Shown: positions 1,502 through 13,795 of the stretch, piece by piece
Layout: every line of letters begins with the position of its first letter
Numbering within the stretch: the stretch's first letter is position 1
Assembly (NCBI GenBank): GCA_025965875.1
Contig: JAOPWD010000438.1
Location: forward strand, 1 to 32,863
DNA: 32,863 bases
Origin: Pseudonocardiales bacterium
Lineage (GTDB): Bacteria; Actinomycetota; Actinomycetes; Mycobacteriales; Jatrophihabitantaceae
Direction of reading: 5' to 3'
Notes under the pieces: generated by a model
What the model was told of the DNA's origin: nothing
Database searches by the model: none
Seen by the model: the letters and a program-made list of their open reading frames with translations, nothing else
Position numbers and translations under genes: made by a program

Positions 1502-2776
1502 TCAGCCCCGGAGGACGCCGCGCGGATCAGCGGGCATCCGGTCAGCCGTCGACACCGCCGACCTCGTCGGACCACCCAGCGACAGGAACTGCGCCACCGG
1601 AAGCGTCGCCGCCCCGAGGGCGACCGCGTCCGGGCCGAGTTCCGCACGGACGATCTCCAGGTGACTGAACGGCAGCCGCAGCGCGTTGCGCCCAGCGGCG
1701 TCGCGGATCTCCGGCAATAGGACGTTGCCGAGGCTCTGGCCGAGCCACCCGCCGACGACGACGCGTTCGGGATTGAAGAGGTTCGCCAGGTTGGCGATCC
1801 CGACGCCGAGGTACGTCGCGGTCTCATCGAGCACCTGCGCAGCGACCTCGTCGCTCTCGCGCGTCGCGAGCATGCGGTCGATGCGCTTTTCCAGATCGGC
1901 CTGGCTGGTCCGGCGCCGACGACCGGCCAGCTCGTCGTAACGGCTGACGATGGCCGCAGCGCCGATGTAGGCCTCCAGGCAGCCGAGAGCACCGCAGCGA
2001 CACCTGCGGCCGTCGACGACGATCGTGGTGTGTCCCCACTCACCGGCGCTGCTGGTCGCGCCGCGGTAGAGCTGGCGGTTGCTCACGATGCTGGTGCCGA
2101 CCCCCACGCCGAGCAGGGCGATGACGGCGTTGTCCACGCCGCGGGCCGCACCGAACCAGGTCTCCGCCAGGCCCAGCGTCTTCGCGCCGTTGTCGATGAT
2201 CATCGGCAACGAGATGTGCTGCCGCATCAGCTGCTCGAACGGCACCGCGTCCCAGCCGATGCTCTGGCCGTGGACCACGGCGCCGTCGGCGTGCTCCACG
2301 AGGCCGGGGACTCCGATGCCCACGCCCAGGATGTCCGACGCGGCCAGCTGTGCTTCGGCGACGACGTGATCGATGCCCAGCGTCACCTGCGCCACCGCAT
2401 CCGCCGGGTCGAGCCGGGTCAGGACGGCCGTCGACCGGTGCGACGCCCGCACTCGCATGCCCAGGTCGAACAGCTCGACCAGGACCGCGGTCTCCCCGAT
2501 GTCCACGCCGATGACGAAGCCGAACTCCGGATTGACCTGCACCAGACCACGCGGGCGGCCACCGTTGGAATCCTCCGACCCGACCTCGATGAGGACACCC
2601 TGGTCGAGCAGTTCGCCGATCACGTTGCTGACCGTGGCGAGCGAGACACCGGTGGCAGCGCCGATCTGCTGCCGGCTCAGCGCGCCGCGCAGGTAGAGCT
2701 CCCACAAGGCCGTCGCGCGGTTCGTCTTGCGCAGATCGCGAACGGTCTGGGGCTCCCTCGACATCCGACGCTGCAC
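1502..2776 (-). CDS. ROK-family transcriptional repressor (sugar-responsive)
   Basis: A 424-aa ROK regulator, expected to bind DNA as a repressor and to release it on binding a sugar. Residues about 33-55 form a winged HTH (LSRQQIGAATGVSLATVSNV). The ROK domain follows with GVDIGETAVL, the IDNGAK segment holding the Asp equivalent to the catalytic base of ROK kinases, and the zinc motif CRCGALGCLE (first Cys near residue 259). I chose the GTG at 2776 because GGGAGGT ends 4 nt upstream. The ATGs at 2794 and 2764 have poor or badly spaced sites. The gene diverges from a sugar ABC importer and beta-glucosidase, so that operon is the likely target, and the inducer is probably a beta-glucoside or glucose derivative. 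The target and inducer are inference; the family is clear. Confidence 0.92.
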   Translation of the reverse strand: MQRRMSREPQTVRDLRKTNRATALWELYLRGALSRQQIGAATGVSLATVSNVIGELLDQGVLIEVGSEDSNGGRPRGLVQVNPEFGFVIGVDIGETAVLVELFDLGMRVRASHRSTAVLTRLDPADAVAQVTLGIDHVVAEAQLAASDILGVGIGVPGLVEHADGAVVHGQSIGWDAVPFEQLMRQHISLPMIIDNGAKTLGLAETWFGAARGVDNAVIALLGVGVGTSIVSNRQLYRGATSSAGEWGHTTIVVDGRRCRCGALGCLEAYIGAAAIVSRYDELAGRRRRTSQADLEKRIDRMLATRESDEVAAQVLDETATYLGVGIANLANLFNPERVVVGGWLGQSLGNVLLPEIRDAAGRNALRLPFSHLEIVRAELGPDAVALGAATLPVAQFLSLGGPTRSAVSTADRMPADPRGVLRG

Positions 2777-2853
2777 GCGTACCTCCCTCGCCATGCTGGT
2801 GTTCTCGCCGCCATCCGTTGGTAACGAATTGGACACAAAGCACCCGATTACCA

Positions 2854-2904
2854 TTGACGCGGTTTTGTTCTCGCGCACAACATACACGACTTAGAGGAAG
2901 TCGT
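2854..2904 (+). promoter_or_regulatory. Promoter and palindromic operator of the beta-glucoside operon
   Basis: TTGACG (2854-2859) and CAACAT (2878-2883), 18 bp apart, form a plausible -35/-10 pair reading toward the binding-protein gene. The predicted start near 2890 falls inside a perfect 7-bp inverted repeat, ACGACTT-N5-AAGTCGT (2886-2904). A repressor bound there would block initiation, so this is a good candidate site for the adjacent ROK regulator. The remaining leader to 2981 contains no gene. Confidence 0.6.
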
Positions 2905-2981: not shown

Positions 2982-4289
2982 ATGCGAGTGACTCGGTTGG
3001 CTGCGCTCGCGTTGGCCTCGTTGGTCGGCGTGAGCGCCCTCTCGGCGTGTAGCAGTAGCAACAGCGGGAGTGGATCGGACAAGAACGTGACGCTCACCTA
3101 TTGGGCGAGCAACCAGGGAACGAGCCTGGACAACGACAAGCAGGTGCTCGGTCCGGAACTGGCGAAGTTCACCCAGCAGACCGGCATCAAGGTCAAGCTG
3201 CAGGTCGTGCCGTGGGCCGACCTACTCAACAACATCCTGACGGCGACGACGTCGGGCAAGGGTCCCGATGTGCTCAACATCGGCAACACCTGGTCGGCGT
3301 CGCTGCAGGCCACGGGCGCGTTCGTACCGTTTGACGACAGCGTGATGGCCAAGATCGGCGGCAAGAGCCGGTTCCTCGGCGGCAGCTTGTCGGCGACCGG
3401 TGCCGCGGACAAGCCGCCGACGGCCGTGCCGATCTACAGCCTCGCCTACGGCCTGTACTACAACAAGAAGTACTTCGCCGAGGCGGGCATCAGTCAGCCG
3501 CCGACCACCTGGGCGGAGTTCGAGACCGACGCGAAGAAGGTCACCAACGCGCAGCACTGGGGCCTGTCCATCGAGGGCGGCAGCGTCAGCGAGAACGTCC
3601 ACAACGTGTTCACGCTCAGCCAGCAGCAGGGCGGCGCCTTCTTCGACGCGGCGGGCAAGCCGACGTTCGACACGCCGCAGAACGTCGCCGCGGTCCGTCA
3701 GTACCTCGACTTCATCCAGCAGGACAAGATCACCAACCCGAGCAACGCGGAATACGCACAGGGCACCGAGGCACTGGCCGACTTCGCGAAGGGCAAGTCG
3801 GCGATGGTCCTCTGGCAGGCCGCATCCGGCTCGCTCAAGCAGCTCGGCATGAACGCCGCTGACATCGGTGTAGCCCCGATGCCGCTTCCCGACCCGATGC
3901 CTGCAGGCGGCAAGAAGGTCACGAGCATGGTCGCCGGCATCAACCTGGCTGTTTTCAAGAACACCAAGCACATGGACGCCGCACTGCAGTTCGTGAAGTT
4001 CATGACAAGCACGCCTGAGCAAAAGGTGTTGAACAAGACCTACGGCTCGATGCCGTCAGTCACCGACGCCTACGCCGACCCAGCCTTCAACACCCCGGCG
4101 GTGCAGACGTTCAAGAAGATCCTGAGCGCCTCGGCAGCACCGCTGCCCGCGGTGGCCGCCGAAAGCCAGTTCGAGACGCTGATCGGGACGGCGGTCAAGA
4201 ACATGCTCGCCGACGCGGCCAGCGGCAAGAACGTCTCGGAGTCCGACATCAGCGCCCAGCTCAAGGCAGCTCAACAGCAGCTGTCCTGA
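2982..4289 (+). CDS. Carbohydrate ABC transporter substrate-binding lipoprotein (CUT1)
   Basis: This 435-aa extracellular solute-binding protein (SBP_bac_1 type) delivers a sugar to the two permeases that follow. The N terminus is a lipoprotein signal with lipobox LSAC and lipidated Cys23, then a Ser/Gly-rich tether. The mature part shows the CUT1 pattern: LTYWAS near the start, GKGPDVLNIGNTW, the hinge segment YGLYYNKKYFAEAGI-PPTTWAEF, FAKGKSAMVLWQ, and late NLAVFKNTKHMDAALQFVKFM. AAAGGA lies 7 nt before the ATG. It leads an operon with a MalF-like and a MalG-like permease and a GH1 beta-glucosidase, so the substrate is probably a beta-linked disaccharide or short oligosaccharide. The exact sugar cannot be read from the sequence. 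Confidence 0.93.
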   Translation: MRVTRLAALALASLVGVSALSACSSSNSGSGSDKNVTLTYWASNQGTSLDNDKQVLGPELAKFTQQTGIKVKLQVVPWADLLNNILTATTSGKGPDVLNIGNTWSASLQATGAFVPFDDSVMAKIGGKSRFLGGSLSATGAADKPPTAVPIYSLAYGLYYNKKYFAEAGISQPPTTWAEFETDAKKVTNAQHWGLSIEGGSVSENVHNVFTLSQQQGGAFFDAAGKPTFDTPQNVAAVRQYLDFIQQDKITNPSNAEYAQGTEALADFAKGKSAMVLWQAASGSLKQLGMNAADIGVAPMPLPDPMPAGGKKVTSMVAGINLAVFKNTKHMDAALQFVKFMTSTPEQKVLNKTYGSMPSVTDAYADPAFNTPAVQTFKKILSASAAPLPAVAAESQFETLIGTAVKNMLADAASGKNVSESDISAQLKAAQQQLS

Positions 4290-4299
4290 CCCGACGATC

Positions 4300-4328
4300 G
4301 GGGGCGGGCGCGCGCGGCGCCCGTCCCC
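4300..4328 (+). promoter_or_regulatory. Intercistronic 12-bp hairpin after the binding-protein gene
   Basis: GGGGGCGGGCGC (4300-4311) pairs with GCGCCCGTCCCC (4317-4328) through 12 bp with one G-T wobble and a 5-nt loop. It has no T-run and the operon continues. Such hairpins often protect the upstream mRNA or attenuate transcription, giving more binding protein than permease. That role is inference. Confidence 0.6.
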
Positions 4329-4346
4329 GAGGCAAGGAACAGCCCA

Positions 4347-5318
4347 GTGGTGCTTGACACGAGGGTGGCGGCCGACTCGCCCCCATCGACCCCGGTTCCG
4401 GCGGCCGGTCGCCGGCGGCGTCGGCAGGTGCTGCCCTACCTGCTGCTCGTCCCAGCCGTGATTCTGGAACTGCTGATCCACATCGTCCCGATGCTCGTCG
4501 GCATCGGCATCAGCTTCCTTAAGTTGACCCAGTTCTACATCGCCAACTGGCGCCAGGCACCGAACGCGGGCCTGGCCAACTACCGGTACGCCCTCGACTT
4601 CAACAGCGCCGCCGGAAAGCAACTGCTGCACTCGTTCTTCGTCACGATCATCTTCACCGTCATCGTCCTGGTCGTGTCCTGGACGTTCGGGATGGCGGCT
4701 GCGGTGTTCACCCAACGTCCGTTCCCGGGGCGGGGCATCGTCCGCACGATCTTCCTCATCCCCTACGCCCTGCCGGTGTTCGCGTCGGTGATCACCTGGA
4801 ACTTCATGCTGCAGCGCGACAACGGCGCGGTGAACCACGTGCTCGTCGACCAGCTGCACCTCGCCGGTGGCGATCGCCCGTTCTGGCTGATCGGGCAGAA
4901 CAGCTTCTACAGCCTGGTGATCGTCGAGGTCTGGCGCACGTGGCCGTTCGCGTTCCTCATGCTCACCGCCGGGATGCAGAGCATCTCCCAGGATCTGTAC
5001 GAAGCCGCGGGGCTGGACGGGGCGGGCGTGTGGGCACAGTTCCGCGGCGTGACCTTGCCGATGCTGCGCCCCGTTAACCGCGTGTTGCTGCTCGTCCTGT
5101 TCCTGTGGACGTTCAACGACTTCACCACGCCGTTCACCCTGTTCGGAAAGGGCGCCCCCCACCAGGCCGACATCATCTCGATGCACATCTATCAGAACTC
5201 GTTTGTCACCTGGAACTTCGGAACCGGGTCGGCGATGTCGGTGCTGCTGCTGATCTTCCTGCTCGTGGTTACCGGCGGATATCTGCGGCTGGCGAAGTCG
5301 GGGAGCAACGATGCGTGA
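4347..5318 (+). CDS. Carbohydrate ABC transporter permease, MalF type
   Basis: A 323-aa inner-membrane permease of the CUT1 class, first of the pair forming the channel. Residues about 30-57 form the first membrane segment (LLLVPAVILELLIHIVPMLVGIGISFL). At least five more follow, near 93-120, 130-155, 185-210, 245-265 and 295-315. The cytoplasmic EAA loop that docks the ATPase reads YEAAGLDGAGVWAQFRGVTLP. The GTG start at 4347 has AAGGA 8 nt upstream. Its last 8 bases overlap the next permease gene, so translation is probably coupled. No ATPase gene is present in the operon. Confidence 0.93.
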   Translation: MVLDTRVAADSPPSTPVPAAGRRRRRQVLPYLLLVPAVILELLIHIVPMLVGIGISFLKLTQFYIANWRQAPNAGLANYRYALDFNSAAGKQLLHSFFVTIIFTVIVLVVSWTFGMAAAVFTQRPFPGRGIVRTIFLIPYALPVFASVITWNFMLQRDNGAVNHVLVDQLHLAGGDRPFWLIGQNSFYSLVIVEVWRTWPFAFLMLTAGMQSISQDLYEAAGLDGAGVWAQFRGVTLPMLRPVNRVLLLVLFLWTFNDFTTPFTLFGKGAPHQADIISMHIYQNSFVTWNFGTGSAMSVLLLIFLLVVTGGYLRLAKSGSNDA

Positions 5319-6150
5319 GCCAATGTGGTTCAAATGGACCCGCGCCATCGGGCTGGCCGTGCTGGCATTGTTCGCGCTCATTCCGGTGTGGGTGATGGTG
5401 ACGTCGGCGCTGAAGCCGCTGGCCGACGTGCAGGAGCGGTTCACCTGGTGGCCGAGCCACCTGTCGGCCAAGCCGTTCGTCGAAATGTGGAAGACGATTC
5501 CGCTGGCCGACTACTTCGTGAACAGCCTGGTCGTCTCCACCGTCGCTTCGATCGCGTCAGTGGTCGTCGCGCTGCTCGCGGCCTATTCGCTGAGCCGGTA
5601 CCGCTTCCGCGGCCGGCAGGCGTTCTCGGTGGTCGTGCTTTCGACGCAGATGTTTCCCGGCATCCTGTTCCTGCTGCCCCTCTACGTCATCTTCGTCAAC
5701 CTCGGCAACACGACCGGCCTTCAGCTCTACGGCAGCCGGACGGGTCTCATCGTCACGTACATGACGTTCACGCTGCCGTTCGCGATCTGGATGCTGGCCG
5801 GCTACCTGGACTCGGTGCCGCGCGAACTGGACGAGGCCGCGAAGGTCGACGGGTGCGGGCCGCTGGGCGCCTTCATGCGCGTCGTCATCCCGGCCGCGAT
5901 GCCCGGCATCGTCGCCGTCCTGATCTACGCGTTCATGACCGCGTGGGGTGAGGTGCTGTTCGCCTCGGTGCTGACCGACGATTCGACCCGCACCCTGGCC
6001 GTCGGGCTGCAGGGATACGCGACCCAGAACAACGTCTACTGGAACCAGATCATGGCGGCGGCGCTCACCGTGAGCGTGCCGATCGTCGTCGGCTTCCTCG
6101 TGCTCCAGCGCTACCTCGTCGCCGGCATGACCGCCGGCTCGGTGAAGTGA
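5311..6150 (+). CDS. Carbohydrate ABC transporter permease, MalG type
   Basis: This 279-aa protein is the second permease of the importer. It has the usual six membrane segments, starting at residues about 12-33 (IGLAVLALFALIPVWVMVTSAL). The MalG signature segment ending the protein resembles QRYLVAGMTAGSVK. The EAA loop reads ELDEAAKVDGCGPLGAFMRVVIP. The ATG at 5311 lies inside the end of the upstream gene behind GGGGAG. With the MalF-like partner it needs two copies of an ATPase; in Streptomyces a shared MsiK ATPase energises several such importers, and the same is likely here. Substrate specificity is set by the upstream lipoprotein. Confidence 0.93.
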   Translation: MREPMWFKWTRAIGLAVLALFALIPVWVMVTSALKPLADVQERFTWWPSHLSAKPFVEMWKTIPLADYFVNSLVVSTVASIASVVVALLAAYSLSRYRFRGRQAFSVVVLSTQMFPGILFLLPLYVIFVNLGNTTGLQLYGSRTGLIVTYMTFTLPFAIWMLAGYLDSVPRELDEAAKVDGCGPLGAFMRVVIPAAMPGIVAVLIYAFMTAWGEVLFASVLTDDSTRTLAVGLQGYATQNNVYWNQIMAAALTVSVPIVVGFLVLQRYLVAGMTAGSVK

Positions 6151-6164
6151 AAGGACCCTGCTCG

Positions 6165-7499
6165 ATGAACCTCTCGTCCCTTCCCGCGGACTTCCGCTGG
6201 GGCGTCTCGACGTCGGCGTACCAGACGGAAGGGGCGGTGGCCGCGGACGGGCGGATGCCGTCGATCTGGGACGACTTCTGCCGTACCCCCAACGCGATCG
6301 AGGGCGGCGACACCGGCGAGCAGGCGTGCGACTCCTACCATCGCTGGCCGGAGGACCTCGCGCTGCTGCGCCGGCTCGGGGTGACCAGTTATCGCTTCTC
6401 GGTCGCGTGGCCGCGCATCCAGCCACTCGGCAGCGGCGCGCTCAACCCTGCCGGTCTGGACCACTACGACCGCATCGTCGACGACCTGCTCGACGCCGAG
6501 ATCACGCCGTTCGTGACGCTGTACCACTGGGATCTGCCCTCGGCGCTGCAGCGTTCGGGCGGGTGGGTCGCGCGTGACACCGCGCTGCGCTTCGCGGAGT
6601 ACGCCGGTGTTGTCGCTGCGCGACTGGGTGACCGGGTCCGTGACTGGACGACGATCAACGAGCCCCTGTGCTGCGCCTGGATAGCGCATCTCGAGGGGAG
6701 GATGGCGCCCGGCCACCGCGACCTGCACGACGCCGTGCATGCATCACATCACCTGTTGCTCGGGCACGGGCTGGCGAGCGACGCCGTGCGCGCGAACGCC
6801 GAGAGCACGCCGCAGGTGGGGATCGTCCTGAACCTGAGCCCGTGCGAGCCGGCGACCGACGACCCGGCCGACGCCCGGGCCGCCGAGCGGGCCGACGGGC
6901 ACACCAACCGGTGGTGGCTCGATCCGCTGCACGGACGTGGGTACCCGGCAGACATGGTCGATGTGTACGGGATCGAACCGCCCGTGCAACCGCGTGACCT
7001 GGAGGTGATCGCCGCACCGCTGGATTTCCTCGGCGTCAACTACTACTTCCGGATGCGCGTCGCGGCTGACGACACCGTGGCCACCCTCGGCTACCGGCCG
7101 GTGCCGGTCGTCGGTGCCGCGACGACGGCAATGGGCTGGGAGGTACATCCGCAGGGACTGCACGACGTGCTGGTCCGGGTGGCGAAGGAGTACGACAGCC
7201 CGGTCCTATATGTCACCGAGAGCGGAGCGGCCTTCGACGATGTGCCCGATGCCGACGGGCACGTCCACGATGCCGAGCGCGCCGAGTACCTGCGAGACCA
7301 CATCGGCGCGACGGCGTCGGCGGTCGCCGAGGGTGCTCGCGTGCAGGGCTTCTACGCCTGGTCGCTCACCGACAACTTCGAATGGTCGTACGGGTACTGG
7401 CCGCGGTTCGGGCTGGCCTACGTCGACTACCCGAGCCAGCGACGGACGATCAAGCACAGCGGTGAGGTCTACGCGGCAATCATCCGCGGCGAGCATTGA
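6165..7499 (+). CDS. GH1 beta-glucosidase
   Basis: This 444-aa family GH1 enzyme hydrolyses the terminal beta-linked glucose of imported oligosaccharides in the cytoplasm; it has no signal peptide. The fold starts with FRWGVSTSAYQTEGA. The acid/base glutamate is Glu166 in TINEP and the nucleophile is Glu352 in VTESG, where most relatives have TENG. HWDLPSALQ, the late GFYAWSLTDNFEWSYGY and RTIKHSGEVYA are also typical. The ATG at 6165 was chosen over an overlapping GTG at 6147 because GAAAGGA lies about 9 nt upstream and the family start follows at once. It is the last gene of the importer operon, which resembles the Streptomyces cebEFG-bglC layout but with a ROK regulator instead of the LacI-type CebR. 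Confidence 0.95.
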   Translation: MNLSSLPADFRWGVSTSAYQTEGAVAADGRMPSIWDDFCRTPNAIEGGDTGEQACDSYHRWPEDLALLRRLGVTSYRFSVAWPRIQPLGSGALNPAGLDHYDRIVDDLLDAEITPFVTLYHWDLPSALQRSGGWVARDTALRFAEYAGVVAARLGDRVRDWTTINEPLCCAWIAHLEGRMAPGHRDLHDAVHASHHLLLGHGLASDAVRANAESTPQVGIVLNLSPCEPATDDPADARAAERADGHTNRWWLDPLHGRGYPADMVDVYGIEPPVQPRDLEVIAAPLDFLGVNYYFRMRVAADDTVATLGYRPVPVVGAATTAMGWEVHPQGLHDVLVRVAKEYDSPVLYVTESGAAFDDVPDADGHVHDAERAEYLRDHIGATASAVAEGARVQGFYAWSLTDNFEWSYGYWPRFGLAYVDYPSQRRTIKHSGEVYAAIIRGEH

Positions 7500-7511
7500 G
7501 CGCCGAATGGT

Positions 7512-10364
7512 GTGCACAATCTGAACGTGGCTGGTCAACGGGCACTACCCGAGGTGGGTATCTCGGCGCGCGAGGCCGAGGTCTTGGCCGCGCTCGGCGA
7601 GCACCTGACCAATGCCGAGATCGGCGCCCGGCTGTTCATCTCCATCCGCACCGTCGAGAGCCACGTCTCGTCACTGCTGCGAAAGCTTCAGGTGGACGAT
7701 CGCCGCGCGCTGGCAGCGGTCGCAGCGAGCCTGGACTCCGTTGCGCCGAGCGCGCCCGGTGCCACTACCGCGGTCGCGCTGCCGTCGCAATTGACGCCGT
7801 TCGTGGGGCGGGTGGCTGAACGGGCGGCGCTGAGTGCTGCGCTGCGCGAGCACCGTCTGGTCACGGCGGTCGGACCGGGCGGGGTCGGCAAGACTCGGCT
7901 GGCCCTGAGCGTCGCTGGTGACGCCGCTGGCCGATTCGCCGACGGGGTCTGGTACGTCGACCTGGTACCGGTTACCGATCCGTTGATGATCGCGCCGGCG
8001 ATCGCGGACGCGCTGGGCCTCGGCGAGCGTCAGGGCCGTTCGGCGACCGACAACGTCCTCGGCTGGGTGGCCGATCGGGAAACGCTGCTTGTGCTGGATA
8101 ACTGCGAGCACCTGCTGGACGGCGTGGTGGTCCTGCTGGAACGGCTGCTCGCCGGCTGTCCCAGGCTGACGGTGCTCGCCACCAGCCGGGCGAGGCTGCT
8201 GGTGCCCTTCGAATGGGTGTTTGCGGTGCCCGGTATGTCGGTCGAAGCCGACGACGGCGGCCCTGGTGATGCCGTCGAGCTGTTCCTCGGGCGGGCCGCA
8301 GCCGGTGGGAGTCCGCTGACATCCGACGACAAGAGACGCATCGCCGCCGTCTGCAGGGGCCTCGACGGCATGGCGCTGGCGATCGAACTGGCGGCCGCCC
8401 GCTTCGCCTCGCTCGGGCTCGATGGGCTCGAAGCGGGGCTGGCCGACCGGCTGCGGCTGCTGACCGGCGGCCCGCGGATCGACGACCGGCACCGTTCCTT
8501 GCGCTCGGCCCTCGACTGGAGCTACGCGCTGCTGGCCGAACCCGATCAGGCGGTGCTGCGCCGGGTCTCGGTCTTCGCCGGGCCGTTCACCGCCGGCGCC
8601 GCCACCGAGGTGCTGGCCGATTGGCAGCCAGTGCCCGCCGGAGCCATTCCGACCATCCTGGCCGGACTCGCCGACCAGAGCCTGCTGACCGCGATCGCCC
8701 AGCCGACGGGGACTCGCTACCGGGCCTTGGAGACCATCCGTCAGTACGGCGTCGATCGGCTCGATGACGCAGGCGAGGGAGTCGAGGCCCACTCGCGCCA
8801 CCTCAACTGGTGCCTGGGCGAGGCCGCCGTACTCGAGGTCGCGTCCCGCGAACTCCTCGGTTCCTGGCGCGGCGCATTCGATCAGGTCGCCGACGAGCTG
8901 CGCTGTGCCCTGACCTGGGCGGCCGCCGGGACGGCTGACTTCCGGCCGTCCGCGTACCGGTTGGCGATCGGGCTGGCCGAACTGAACTTCACCCGGGGCT
9001 TGCCCGGTGAGTCGCAGCGGCGCTACGAACAGGCGGCCGAGCTGGCCGCGGACGACCGCGCCACCGCCGACGCCTTGCGCAGTGCCGCAGGTGCCGCGGA
9101 GTCGCGCCATTTCGGCAACGAGGCGCTGCAGCTGCGCCGGGCCGCGGCCGATGCAGCCCTACGCGCCGGGGACCGGGCTCGCGCGGCTGCTGACCTCGCC
9201 CAGAATGCCGAGTTGATCAATCGCGGCCCTGGGCTCATGGCTACCGGTCCCGCGGTCGGTGAGGTCGAGGCGCTGATCGCCGAGGGGTGGACGCTGGCTG
9301 ACGGCGACCTGACGGCGCAGGCTCGGCTGCTGACCGCCGAGGCGTTCAACGGCGCGGTAGCCGATCCCGCCACCGTCGAACTGATCGAGCGCGCCCTCAC
9401 GCTGGCCCGCCACATCGACGACCCGATGATCGAGAGCGCCGCGCTCGACCAACTCACCGCGGTACAGCTGGCTCGAGGCGAAGTCCGCGCCGCGGCGCAG
9501 AGCGCACTGCGGCGCATCGAACTCCTGCCGATGCAGGTGACCGCCGCGGCCGCCCTGGAGTTCTTCGACGGGTTCGGCATGGCCGCCGATTGCTCCGTCG
9601 CCGCAGGCGACCTGCAGGCGGCCCGGAAACTGGCCGAACGCCTCCGCGACCTGCCGTTCCACCACGAGGAGGGCCACCTGGCGACCGCGCGGCTGCTCGT
9701 CGTCACCGTGTTGGCGGGCGACTGGCCCGAGGCGGTCGGCCTGGCCGAGCGGTTCCGCGAGGGCTGGGAGCGGGCCGGGCGGCCCCGGGCCGGCAACCTC
9801 AGCCGCGGCGCATACGCGGCGGCGACGGTGCACGGGCTGCGTGGCGACGATGACGCCCGGGCCGCGTGGCTGGAGATCGTGGCCGCCCTCGGGACGCCGG
9901 GACGCTCGCTGGCCGAACTGCACTTCGGCGACGTGTTCGACGCCTTGCTGCTGCTGCACCGCGGGCAGCCCGAGCAGGCGGAACAGGTGCTGCACACGGC
10001 GCCGGAGCAGTTGACGGAGTGGTACAACGGCATGTGGCGGCCCTGGTACGCCGCGCTCTGGGCCGAGGCGGCCGTCCTATCCGGGCACGAGGATGCTGCC
10101 GCCCGCTTGGTTCGGGCCCGATTGATGGCTTCCGGCAATCCGATCGCCACCGCCATCGTGGAGCGCGCGGCGGCGCTGGCCGAGCGGGCCGGACAGGACG
10201 GCGACCGCGACGGGTTGACCGCCGCGGCCGCCGCCCTGGAGGCCACCGGGTGTCGCTACCAGTGGGCTCGAACGCTCGTCCTCATCGGCGGGGAGCAACG
10301 AGCGCGTGGCGAGGCCATGCTGGCGACGATGGGTGCGACCCCTATGGCCGGGCTTCCAGAATGA
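7512..10364 (+). CDS. Large ATPase transcriptional regulator with N-terminal LuxR-type HTH
   Basis: A 950-aa cytoplasmic regulator. Residues about 17-62 form a LuxR-type HTH (SAREAEVLAALGEHLTNAEIG, then TVESHVSSLLRKLQV). A STAND/AAA-type ATPase follows, with Walker A GPGGVGKT at 121-128, Walker B LLVLDN near 192-197 and an ATSRARL sensor-like segment. The rest, to the C terminus, is Ala/Leu-rich and helical, most likely TPR-like repeats that sense a signal. Most large LuxR ATPases carry the HTH at the C terminus, so the order here is reversed. The GTG at 7512 follows the beta-glucosidase by 12 nt without a clear ribosome binding site; a GTG at 7527 is an alternative. The gene ends 23 bp inside the convergent methyltransferase pseudogene. 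The target genes are unknown. Confidence 0.85.
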   Translation: MHNLNVAGQRALPEVGISAREAEVLAALGEHLTNAEIGARLFISIRTVESHVSSLLRKLQVDDRRALAAVAASLDSVAPSAPGATTAVALPSQLTPFVGRVAERAALSAALREHRLVTAVGPGGVGKTRLALSVAGDAAGRFADGVWYVDLVPVTDPLMIAPAIADALGLGERQGRSATDNVLGWVADRETLLVLDNCEHLLDGVVVLLERLLAGCPRLTVLATSRARLLVPFEWVFAVPGMSVEADDGGPGDAVELFLGRAAAGGSPLTSDDKRRIAAVCRGLDGMALAIELAAARFASLGLDGLEAGLADRLRLLTGGPRIDDRHRSLRSALDWSYALLAEPDQAVLRRVSVFAGPFTAGAATEVLADWQPVPAGAIPTILAGLADQSLLTAIAQPTGTRYRALETIRQYGVDRLDDAGEGVEAHSRHLNWCLGEAAVLEVASRELLGSWRGAFDQVADELRCALTWAAAGTADFRPSAYRLAIGLAELNFTRGLPGESQRRYEQAAELAADDRATADALRSAAGAAESRHFGNEALQLRRAAADAALRAGDRARAAADLAQNAELINRGPGLMATGPAVGEVEALIAEGWTLADGDLTAQARLLTAEAFNGAVADPATVELIERALTLARHIDDPMIESAALDQLTAVQLARGEVRAAAQSALRRIELLPMQVTAAAALEFFDGFGMAADCSVAAGDLQAARKLAERLRDLPFHHEEGHLATARLLVVTVLAGDWPEAVGLAERFREGWERAGRPRAGNLSRGAYAAATVHGLRGDDDARAAWLEIVAALGTPGRSLAELHFGDVFDALLLLHRGQPEQAEQVLHTAPEQLTEWYNGMWRPWYAALWAEAAVLSGHEDAAARLVRARLMASGNPIATAIVERAAALAERAGQDGDRDGLTAAAAALEATGCRYQWARTLVLIGGEQRARGEAMLATMGATPMAGLPE

Positions 10365-11417
10365 TGTTGAACGGGGTCTCAGCCGCCCGGCGCACGTGGG
10401 TGAACCCGGCCTCGCGTAGCACGACGGCCAGTTGGCGTTCCCCGGCCTGCGCACCGAGCCCAAGCGCGACCTCCTGGGCCAGCGAACCCGGCGTGCAGAT
10501 CACCGTCGAAAGGCCGTAATAGGTACGCCCCACCGGGTTCAGGTTCTGCTCCAGCGCGTCGCCGGCGTTGGGCTCGACCAGCAGCAGCGTGCCGTCCGGC
10601 GCGAGCGCCTGCCGGATGCGGCGAGCCGCCCCGACCGGATCGCCCATGTCGTGCAGGGCGTCGAAGAGGCACACGAGGTCGTAGCCGTTGCCGGGGAAGT
10701 CCTTCGCGGACGCGACCTCGAACTTCGCCCGCTGGTTCACGCCGGCCTCGGCTGCCGCCTTGCGGGCGGCCTCGATGGAGACGTCGTGGAAGTCGAAACC
10801 CACGAACGACGAGCGCTCGAACGCCTCGGCCATGATGATCGTGGAGGCTCCGAGCCCGCACCCCACGTCGGCCACGCTCGCCCCTGACTGCAGCTTCTCG
10901 ACGACTCCATCAAGGGCGGGCAGCCACTCGTTGACCAGGTGGGCGGCGTAGCCGGGCCGGAAGAGCCGCAGGGCGCCGGAGAAGAGCCGGTGGTCGTGCT
11001 CATGCCAGTCGACGCCCGCGCCGGTGCGGAACCGTCGACGAACACATCGTGATCGGCGTAACAGGACGCGATGGTCTCGAAGGCGCCGCCGAGGAAGACC
11101 GGGCTGTCCTCGTTTGCGACCACCATGGCCTGCTCGGCAGGCAACTCGTAGGTGCCCTCCGCCGGGTCGTAGACGACGTAGCCGCCGGCGGCCTGATTGC
11201 CGAGCCACTCACGCACATAGCGTTCGGTCGTGCCGGTGCGGTGCGCCAGCGTGGCCGAGGTGATCGGTCCGGCGCCGGCCATCGCCTTGTACAGGCCCAG
11301 CCGGTCGCCGATGTGCAGCAGCAGCCCGGAGATGGCTGCCCCCATGTCGACGACGGCCTGGCCGACGAACGCCTCGAGTTTCGCTCCGTCGACGGTCGGG
11401 GTTTCCGTTGTGGTCAT
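10342..11417 (-). pseudogene. SAM-dependent methyltransferase (Rv2258c-like), broken by a frameshift
   Basis: The reading runs from ATG 11417 (GGAGAC about 6 nt upstream) through a winged-helix N-terminal domain (GLYKAMAG, TLAHRTGTTERYVREWL, YELPAEQAMVVA) to YADHDVFVDG. It must then shift at 11031/11032 to continue as FRTGAGVDWHEHDHRLF. The methyltransferase half holds SAM motif I, VADVGCGLGAS, then LVCLFDALHDMGDP and a C terminus ending EARP. One missing base after GACGG explains the break. The unshifted frame stays open to 10737, giving a nonsense tail rather than an early stop. Both halves look well conserved, so the defect is recent or a sequencing error. No slippery heptamer is visible. 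The substrate of this family is unknown. The 3' end overlaps the convergent regulator gene by 23 bp. Confidence 0.85.
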
Positions 11418-11494
11418 TCGTGTCTCCGCTCTTCGGTGCAGGTCCCCGATGGAACTGCGTGGACGAGCTTGTGCGTAGACGTGGGCGGCGGGCA

Positions 11495-11537
11495 TCCGTG
11501 CTCACCACGGACCTGCGGATTCCGTGACGGCCACGGA
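11495..11537. promoter_or_regulatory. Tandem 17-bp palindromes between divergent genes
   Basis: TCCGTG-CTCAC-CACGGA (11495-11511) and TCCGTG-ACGGC-CACGGA (11521-11537) are two copies of one palindrome with identical 6-bp arms and a 5-nt spacer, 26 bp apart. The outer flanks also extend the symmetry (CA before, TG after). They lie in the 199-bp gap between the methyltransferase start (11417, minus) and the small-protein/GNAT/exporter operon (11617, plus). This is the layout of a dimeric repressor binding cooperatively. No regulator gene adjoins it. Confidence 0.6.
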
Positions 11538-11616
11538 TGTCCTCCGGTCGGCCCTGGCTCAGGGTTGGCACCAGCGACGAACGCTCGCTGACTGACCACT
11601 TCGAAGGAGCATTTCG

Positions 11617-11799
11617 ATGATCCCGTACCACGCCGGCCCCGCCCTGGCGGACGCACGGCGCAGCACCCTGCTGGCCGAGGCGCAGGCCTCGCGGCTGGCT
11701 TCGCAAGCCCGCTTCCGCCGGCAGCAGACCGGCACTGCGGCCAACCGCCGCTCGCCCCTGCGTCGGGCCCGGGGGCCACTGAGCAGGACGTTCCGATGA
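11617..11799 (+). CDS. Small basic protein of unknown function (60 aa)
   Basis: A 60-aa protein with AAGGAG 8 nt before its ATG, and its stop overlaps the next start in an ATGA junction, so it is very probably translated. Residues about 9-36 (ALADARRSTLLAEAQASRLASQARF) should form a charged amphipathic helix. The C-terminal third is Arg-rich (RRQQTGTAANRRSPLRRARG). There is no membrane segment or signal peptide. It leads an operon with a GNAT acetyltransferase and an exporter. I do not recognise a named family; a role as a nucleic-acid or partner-protein binder would be a guess. Confidence 0.65.
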   Translation: MIPYHAGPALADARRSTLLAEAQASRLASQARFRRQQTGTAANRRSPLRRARGPLSRTFR

Positions 11800-12353
11800 C
11801 CGCGCAGCTGGCGACGCGTCCCACGGTCGGCGTAGCCGTCGCGCTGCGCGACGGGTCAGCGGTCCGGATCAGGCAACTCACCGGCGATGACGCTGAACTG
11901 CTGGCCGACGGCTTCGCCCGACTGAGCCTCGAGTCCCGGCAGTTTCGGTTCCTGACCGGAAAGCCACGGTTGTCCGCGGCCGAGTTGCGCTACTTCACCG
12001 CGATCGACCACCACGACCACGAGGCGCTCGTAGCACTCAGCCTCGTCGACGGACGCGGTGTGGGCGTCGCTCGCTACGTCCGATATGCCAAGGACCCGCA
12101 GACTGCTGACGTTGCCGTGACCGTCATCGACGAGTGGCACGGCCGAGGGCTGGGCACCGAATTGATGACCCGGCTGATCGACCGCGCCGTCGCCGAAGGC
12201 ATCCGCCGCTTCACGGCGTCGATCGCGGCCGGCAACCTGGCCGTGCTCAGGCTGCTACGAACCATCAGCGTGGATTACGTGCTCGTGGGTTTCGAGGACG
12301 GCATCGTGGAGTACGAGATCTCGCTTCCGTCGCCACGGGATGACGCGGCGTGA
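11796..12353 (+). CDS. GNAT-family N-acetyltransferase
   Basis: A 185-aa cytoplasmic acetyltransferase that should move an acetyl group from acetyl-CoA to an amine. The N-terminal part VRIRQLTGDDAELLADGFARLSLESRQFRFL resembles the GNAT domain of actinobacterial protein-lysine acetyltransferases. Motif A is present as VIDEWHGRGLGTELMTRLIDRA, with the R-G-L-G-T acetyl-CoA pyrophosphate loop, and IAAGNLAVLRLLR follows as motif B. There is no regulatory cyclic-nucleotide domain, so any protein-acetylase role is only a suggestion. It overlaps both neighbours by four bases (ATGA upstream, GTGA downstream), which makes a tightly coupled three-gene unit with the exporter. Confidence 0.85.
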   Translation: MTAQLATRPTVGVAVALRDGSAVRIRQLTGDDAELLADGFARLSLESRQFRFLTGKPRLSAAELRYFTAIDHHDHEALVALSLVDGRGVGVARYVRYAKDPQTADVAVTVIDEWHGRGLGTELMTRLIDRAVAEGIRRFTASIAAGNLAVLRLLRTISVDYVLVGFEDGIVEYEISLPSPRDDAA

Positions 12354-13795
12354 GCTCGGTCATCGAGCGGCGAGCTTCTGGGTCGGCGGCTGAAACACTG
12401 GCACGGGTGGAATCCGCGCGCGCCGTTCGGCCCGGGGCCGCCGTGTTCCTGCTGACGAGCCTGGGCGGCTTCCTGGTCTCCCTGGACGTCTCGATCGCGA
12501 ACTCCTTGCTGCCGGCGATCGGGGCCGACTTCCACACCGCCGACCGGGCCGCGTTGTCGTGGATCATCACCGGTTACGCGATCGTCTTCGCCGCGGTGCT
12601 CGTACCTGCCGGCCGCCTGGCCGACCGCGCGGGCCGCAGGCGGGTCTACCTCGGCGGCCTGATCACCTTCGGCGTCGGCTCCGCGTTGTGCGGCGGCGCG
12701 CCGAACCTGCCCTTACTGCTGTCTGGTCGAATCCTGCAGGGCGTTGGTGCGGCGGCCGCATCGCCGGCGTCGCTCGGCCTCCTGCTCGCGGCCTCGGATG
12801 CCCGGCACCGGTCCCGCTACACCGCACGATGGACCGGCGCGGCCGCCCTGGGTATCTGCCTGGGGCCGCTCGTGGGCGGACTTCTCACGACGGCCGCAAG
12901 CTGGCGTTGGGCGTTCCTGGTCAACGTGCCGATCGTCCTCATCGCAGTCACCGCAGCGCCGCGGGTCTTGCCGGAGACACCACGCCACCCCGGCCGGCAC
13001 CTCCCCGACCCGATCGGCGCGGTGCTGCTGGCCCTCGGGGCGGCCGCGCTCACGCTGGGGATCTCCGAGGCGACGACCTGGGGTCTGGCTGACGCCAGAA
13101 CGCTCGGCTGCCTCGTCGCCGGTGCCGTACTGGCCACGGTGTTCACTCGGCGCTGTTCTCGGGTCGATGACCCGTTGCTCGACCTGCGCTTGCTCAAACA
13201 GCGCAGCTTTGCCCTGACCACGATCACGACTTTTCTCTACGCCTGCGGCTTCTTCGGGATGTTGTTGACGTTCGTCCTGTTCCTGGTCGGGCCCTGGCAC
13301 CTCAGCCTCGTGCAGACCGGACTGGCCCTGCTGCCAATGGGTGGTGTCGTCGTCACCATGACCACTCGGGTCGGCGATCTGGCCGGGGCGATCGGCTTCC
13401 GGACGCCACTCGCCGTCGGATCGGGCTGCATGGCCGCCGGTCTGCTCCTCAGTGCCTGGGTCGACGACGGCAGTCAATTCTCCTGGACCTGGCTCGTCCT
13501 GGTCGCGCTGATCGGCGTCGGCATCGGGCTGTGCTACCCGCTGCTCGGCGCGGCTGCGGTGGCCGGACTGCACCACGCCGACCTGGCTGCCGCAACCGCG
13601 GTGAACCAATGCGCGCGCCAGATAGGAGCCGCGCTGGGCGTCGCGGTGGCCGTCGCCGTGCTCGGACCGGTCAACCCGGCGTCGATCGGCCGATTCCACG
13701 TCACCTGGATTGTCTGTGCCGGGTTCTGCGCGCTGGCTGCCGTGGCCGCCAGCCTCATGCCGCGGACCTCGACAGCGCGGCGATCAGCCCAGTAG
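12350..13795 (+). CDS. MFS drug exporter, DHA2 (14-helix) family
   Basis: A 481-aa membrane protein of the EmrB/QacA type, expected to expel hydrophobic compounds using the proton gradient. The first segment is FLLTSLGGFLVSLDVSIANSLLPAI, with the Asp typical of the family. WIITGYAIVFAAVLVPAGRLADRAGRRRVYLGGL forms motif A, and GRILQGVGAAAASPASLGLLLA and LGICLGPLVGGLLTTAASWRWAFLVNVP cover motifs B and C. About 14 hydrophobic segments are visible. The GTG start overlaps the GNAT stop (GTGA). The tandem palindromes upstream of the operon suggest a ligand-responsive repressor. The substrate is unknown. The 3' end overlaps a convergent small gene by 12 bp. Confidence 0.93.
   Translation: MSSVIERRASGSAAETLARVESARAVRPGAAVFLLTSLGGFLVSLDVSIANSLLPAIGADFHTADRAALSWIITGYAIVFAAVLVPAGRLADRAGRRRVYLGGLITFGVGSALCGGAPNLPLLLSGRILQGVGAAAASPASLGLLLAASDARHRSRYTARWTGAAALGICLGPLVGGLLTTAASWRWAFLVNVPIVLIAVTAAPRVLPETPRHPGRHLPDPIGAVLLALGAAALTLGISEATTWGLADARTLGCLVAGAVLATVFTRRCSRVDDPLLDLRLLKQRSFALTTITTFLYACGFFGMLLTFVLFLVGPWHLSLVQTGLALLPMGGVVVTMTTRVGDLAGAIGFRTPLAVGSGCMAAGLLLSAWVDDGSQFSWTWLVLVALIGVGIGLCYPLLGAAAVAGLHHADLAAATAVNQCARQIGAALGVAVAVAVLGPVNPASIGRFHVTWIVCAGFCALAAVAASLMPRTSTARRSAQ

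Follow-up and report, generated by a model that had tools for sequence, protein, structure and literature searches.

The window analyzed here is a stretch of 32,863 nucleotides from a Pseudonocardiales bacterium. It contains a methyltransferase gene and, divergent from it, an operon encoding a small protein, a GNAT acetyltransferase and an MFS exporter, which is the gene layout given in the first-pass annotation. The two 17-bp palindromes with identical arms, TCCGTG-N5-CACGGA, that had been described between these genes are both exact; TCCGTGCTCACCACGGA (site 1) and TCCGTGACGGCCACGGA (site 2) are separated by a 9-bp gap, with 26 bp from start to start. The gene of the proposed box-binding protein, designated REG, lies one gene further, beyond the methyltransferase gene and convergent with it, and has no box of its own in the window. 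The coordinates are listed in Table 1.

Table 1. Genes, palindromic sites and predicted promoter elements of the locus.
Feature	Position	Strand	Remarks
REG, 950 aa, proposed box-binding protein	7512-10364	+	Predicted N-terminal GerE HTH, STAND NTPase, winged helix and TPR-like superhelix; co-occurs with the palindrome
Methyltransferase gene, Rv2258c-like (HTH_65)	10342-11417	-	Pfam HTH_65 and Methyltransf_31; starts at 11417; divergent from the GNAT operon
Predicted -10 hexamer CAAGCT	11466-11471	-	A at base 25 from site 1; predicted start near 11459
Site 1, proposed box for the leftward (methyltransferase) promoter	11495-11511		Exact; fixed-distance -10 element on the left side only
Site 2, proposed box for the rightward (small protein-GNAT-MFS) promoter	11521-11537		Exact; fixed-distance -10 element on the right side only
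Predicted -10 hexamer CAGGGT	11560-11565	+	A at base 24 after site 2; predicted start near 11572
Small protein, 60 aa, first gene of the rightward operon	11617-11799	+	ORF with RBS behind the predicted promoter; no Pfam family
GNAT acetyltransferase	11796-12353	+	Pfam Acetyltransf_1; nearest NCBIfam model Pat, below its cut-off; 4-base overlap with the small protein
MFS exporter, DHA2/EmrB kind	12350-13795	+	Pfam MFS_1; NCBIfam EmrB model just below cut-off; 4-base overlap with GNAT

Compared with a homologue, the methyltransferase gene shows a one-base frame break located approximately between positions 11034 and 11025, possibly as a result of an assembly error. In the region 2982-10364, REG begins 12 bp downstream of a GH1 gene, the last one of a solute-binding protein/ABC permease operon, and this sugar operon is adjoined by a ROK-family gene (1502-2887, minus strand); REG may be co-transcribed with the sugar genes in the window. 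In addition, the segment 18388-20890 encodes a CopC-CopD fusion protein and, after it, a DUF1775 protein, likely a copper-handling cluster.

The genome scan that had been proposed as a check located just two exact copies of the pattern in 5.0 Mb, both being the window pair (assembly of 5,007,538 bases in 549 contigs, 89.67% complete), and the reversed control gave 0. With one mismatch allowed, 18 further places were found in the same genome versus 5 for the reversed control; 13 of the 18 had loci, a -10 match was noted in L061 only, and L050 was out of register. In the window alone, allowing two mismatches gave 4 places versus 3.37 expected. The repeat search of the window, at the settings used, reported nothing.

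According to the Pfam analysis, the GerE domain of REG occupies residues 18-71 (2.5e-13, 49.8 bits, cut-off 23.5), and VraR, DevR and GerE are among the structural-sequence matches of the protein. The profile search gave no match to a second HTH at the C-terminus. A SARP domain (OmpR-type HTH plus BTAD) was not found in REG, the matches being GerE and sub-threshold AAA-type and HTH/sigma-r4 models only; NB-ARC sequence models match below their cut-off. In the Walker A motif GPGGVGKT, residues G121, G123, G124, G126, K127 and T128 are invariant in 22 sequences. The predicted structure (mean pLDDT 84.5, pTM 0.66) has the layout HTH-NTPase-winged helix-superhelix, and a fold search with this model returned 6mfv (a STAND protein) and Apaf-1 as the best PDB matches, with MalT domain III at rank 44. 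The model points to a STAND-type layout comprising an NTPase, a winged helix and a superhelical sensor. The statement of the first-pass annotation that no regulator gene is adjacent did not hold, since it overlooked this LuxR/GerE-AAA gene next to the methyltransferase gene, the homologues of which predict the palindrome.

Two sets of loci were compared for the presence of the palindrome. The order set consisted of 37 loci picked by REG homology alone, the window and the short contig fragments L125, L127 and L128 being counted among the 37. The exact palindrome occurs 23 times, in 20 of these loci, and each of 89 other arrangements of the arm letters occurs at most once; gaps of 0-14 other than 5 gave nothing except two cases at gap 4. 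At up to one mismatch, 14 of the 37 loci lack a site with a -10 element, three of them being the short contig fragments. In the held-out set, comprising 43 REG-homology loci in genomes that belong to the class and not to the order, the exact palindrome was found 30 times, in 28 loci, which are not 28 independent events because they were drawn from three families; with one mismatch allowed, 39 of the 43 loci have it. Other arrangements showed a mean of 0.056 and a maximum of 3, and every other gap from 0 to 14 tested gave 0.

In a blind scan of 397 genomes of the order with the pattern ATCCGTG-N5-CACGGAT, 14 genomes were found to contain a total of 16 sites, and the reversed control matched in 1 genome. 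A -10 element is present at 10 of the 16 sites, of which nine are accompanied by REG in the fetched flanks and one is the GNAT box of genome G046. The remaining six have neither a -10 element nor REG. One blind site (L037) has a -10 element on both sides, the sole such case among the exact sites examined. When about 85,000 genomes were scanned for tandem pairs, 20 stretches were obtained. Seventeen of them resemble repeat elements, with near-identical units in repetition and, in one case, a mirrored pair; the other three, from a Pseudonocardiales MAG, Rhodococcus oryzae and Actinocrispum wychmicini, all adjoin REG. The TCCGTG-N5-CACGGA pairs at L133-L135, L137-L142, L144-L147 and L149-L152 lie by chance within unrelated dispersed or tandem repeats of several phyla, e.g., in Saprospira grandis. 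REG homology also led to a Nocardia plasmid record, in which an exact site is located between REG and a divergent VOC gene, with a CAAGCT -10 element at the right distance facing the VOC gene. As judged by sequence comparison, these data demonstrate a tie between the sites and the regulator family.

Promoter geometry was analyzed in flanks anchored on the palindrome. The set included 34 flanks beginning with TG from 27 loci, with L129 and L132 added via GNAT homology and L148 via its tandem sites. In the TG flanks, the A of an A-NNN-T motif falls at base 24 (16 flanks) or 25 (15 flanks), and at none of bases 20-23 or 26-31. The combined statistic, in which one flank can count at both positions, is 30 of 34 versus a mean of 2.4 and a maximum of 13 in 2000 shuffles, and flanks without TG have the element in 2 of 20 cases. 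A-NNN-T is the predicted remainder of a TAnnnT hexamer that keeps A-11 and T-7. A -10 element is located on exactly one side of all 53 exact sites, i.e., 23 of 23 in the order set, which overlap the discovery set of the element, and 30 of 30 in the held-out set; random positions have it in 5.7% of cases. The comparison thus establishes a fixed promoter geometry, and because the -10 distance is fixed, the palindrome centre would lie near -43/-44 of the predicted start, as expected for a class II activator. Since each exact site of the window has its own one-sided -10 element, the pair is best regarded as two boxes for two divergent promoters. The -10 hexamers are weak and poor on their own; an alternative sigma factor at these promoters is possible.

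An extra half-site 5-6 bp behind the box at one mismatch or less was counted 13 + 25 times in 53 flanks. Pairs of sites with spacings of 25-27, 37-38, 46 and 56 bp occur in fifteen loci, including L098 and L119, where the partner site has two mismatches. Both features would suit an oligomerising STAND protein, the spacing clusters being too few to prove phasing. A strict need for the 26-bp pair was dropped, as many sites are single and yet each has a -10 element. Autoregulation as a general function was dropped as well, since none of the -10 flanks in the first set is directed toward REG.

The HTH sequences of REG homologues were compared in 81 loci (37 + 43 + L148). A site with one mismatch or less is present in 61 of them, and the HTH helix reads N(A/V)EI in all 60 where it is readable. 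Eleven of the 17 loci without such a site read NAQ, NAD or NTQ there; the other six comprise L116 and L118, in which NAEI is present without a site, L122, which has a different HTH, and three short contigs. The HTH is missing in three further loci of the 81. Shared ancestry is a confounder for this tie between helix and site. With respect to distance from the window REG, the NAEI-type L120 and L121 are at 38-39% and the NAQI-type L111 at 38%; some NAEI regulators are as distant as the NAQI one, and therefore overall distance alone does not explain the tie. L111, located in the genome of the window (contig 433, 5078-7867), encodes a REG paralogue with approximately 40% identity and NAQI in the HTH. 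Only a two-mismatch site with a -10 match was found in front of it, and the paralogue may read a variant box. Simple palindrome counts gave no variant motif for the NAQI-type regulators.

For the target census, the genes faced by -10 elements at sites with up to one mismatch were clustered, and representatives were analyzed with Pfam. VOC/glyoxalase genes account for 33 flanks (one gene counted twice, at L103), and 12 flanks belong to one cluster, the examined member of which is a FAD_binding_4 oxidoreductase. Methyltransferase genes are faced by 7 flanks and REG itself by 5, the latter in a one-mismatch subgroup (L178, L182-L185) whose -10 elements also face REG. Smaller groups comprise small proteins (3 flanks plus 2 single ones), OsmC-like (3), DUF1801-like (3, below cut-off) and AHSA1 (2) genes, and the single-case targets include an ECF sigma factor, MFS, a second glyoxalase-type protein, RibD_C, L-PSP (RidA-type), DUF998 and GNAT. 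The target ORF at L195 is implausible, and the leftward ORF at L129 is a decayed methyltransferase. Unclassified small proteins of 57-62 aa are encoded directly behind such promoters in the window (11617-11799) and at L129, L093 (where the ORF is longer), L095 and L100, and they share an LAEA..RL core. The OsmC-like genes of L107 and L119, left of the site, would start 0-1 base from the predicted transcription start and would therefore be leaderless.

Footprinting in relatives that keep the genes showed that the palindromes are kept there as well. In G001, a member of the same genus with a GNAT 75% identical to that of the window, both sites are present, one with a single arm mismatch, at a spacing of 25. 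The small protein and GNAT remain in this genome, and the ORF after GNAT has just 58 aa, so the MFS gene looks lost or truncated. Its methyltransferase is a remnant (a 92-residue match at 57% identity). Given the frame break of the window methyltransferase gene and the decay of its G001 counterpart, this genus may not use the left promoter. In G046, which belongs to another family, a separate contig carries GNAT (55%) preceded by one exact site, and the REG locus contains the small protein and the methyltransferase. The box travels with the genes rather than with the neighbourhood.

Taken together, the palindromes are with good confidence interpreted as activator boxes of REG, an N-terminal LuxR/GerE STAND factor of a kind common in actinomycetes, for which we infer DNA binding, activation, oligomerisation and a ligand. 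A GerE dimer of REG would bind each TCCGTG-N5-CACGGA palindrome, with the centre near -43 or -44, and the bound protein would help RNA polymerase start, in a class II manner, at the adjoining weak -10 element, which keeps little beyond A-11 and T-7. Site 2 with CAGGGT would drive the small protein-GNAT-MFS operon from about 11572, and site 1 with CAAGCT the divergent methyltransferase gene from about 11459. If REG behaves like other STAND proteins, ATP and a small-molecule signal would switch it to an oligomeric active state. Cooperativity between sites 1 and 2 is possible.

The first-pass annotation had suggested cooperative binding of a dimeric regulator to the pair. Its view that a regulator binds the palindrome and serves the GNAT/exporter side is very probably right from the sequence evidence, whereas the single cooperative operator does not agree with each exact site having its own one-sided -10 element. 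A dimeric regulator acting on both palindromes together, with the 26-bp spacing being decisive, is unlikely: the pair spacings in the fifteen loci are roughly one-turn steps, but they differ among relatives, single sites still have a -10 element, and the -10 elements of the window pair face outward. Slightly less likely again is that the sites are TetR/MarR-like repressor operators, of REG or of another protein, for the flanking promoters. A position near -43 alone would fit repression too, as would the one-mismatch subgroup with a -10 element facing REG; however, the site lies beside the -10 element and not over it, the distance is fixed, the weak hexamers look activator-dependent, and neither a TetR nor a MarR gene is a consistent neighbour of the site. 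The 6-bp stem and 5-nt loop would be able to fold, and 17 of the 20 tandem stretches across all genomes resemble repeat elements, but an origin as RNA hairpins or mobile repeat copies is scarcely credible, given that the arm letters are kept and not pairing alone, that letter-permuted palindromes are nearly absent, that the sites are upstream of the predicted start and that the source genome has exactly two copies.

As for known systems, LuxR/FixJ (GerE) activators such as LuxR at the lux box, which is centred at -42.5, resemble REG in the GerE domain, the palindromic box and the predicted centre near -43/-44; REG differs in lacking an autoinducer or receiver domain, with a STAND-TPR sensor in its place. 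STAND NTPases (Apaf-1, CED-4, plant resistosomes and 6mfv) have the same NTPase-winged helix-superhelix layout, whereas the effector of REG is a transcriptional HTH, and identity is 12-17% in the structural matches listed. LAL proteins (MalT, RevU, SCO0877) share with REG the large size, the LuxR-type HTH, the Walker A NTPase and the superhelix. According to two papers (PMC3282765, PMC9659744), the HTH of LAL proteins is C-terminal, in contrast to residues 18-71 of 950 in REG. SARP and SARP-LAL regulators, represented by PimR, are similar to REG in having the DNA-binding domain N-terminal to the NTPase and in being activators with several half-sites. PimR contains a SARP domain and is described in PMC5930380 with heptamer direct repeats upstream of -35; the domain of REG is GerE, and its proposed site is an inverted repeat in a fixed class II position. 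REG does not show the defining features of either LAL or SARP-LAL, and it is predicted to work as a LuxR-type class II activator combined with a STAND switch. A search of mostly non-subscription literature found no description of this operator or of an N-terminal GerE-STAND regulator.

From an anonymous repeat pair, the analysis derives a promoter rule that can be tested, and it links a large regulator family, members of which are annotated merely as LuxR-related, to a DNA site. With this rule, targets were located in the absence of synteny, as for GNAT in G046, and also in an independent record, namely the VOC gene of the Nocardia plasmid. As a tentative suggestion, held with rather more doubt than belief, these proteins may form a class, so far undescribed and spread across the actinomycetes, of Apaf-1/MalT-like STAND sensors that carry the LuxR HTH at the front. 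All of them would read one conserved promoter code (upstream half-site TCCGTG, TCCGTG-N5-CACGGA, and a degenerate -10 element at a fixed distance of 22-23 bp), with varied genes for modifying or exporting small molecules plugged into it, and the class would represent a bacterial NLR-like xenobiotic alarm. The fold of STAND switches is also that of the apoptosome and plant immune receptors, and a ligand search would become practical with a simple DNA reporter for a bacterial STAND protein.
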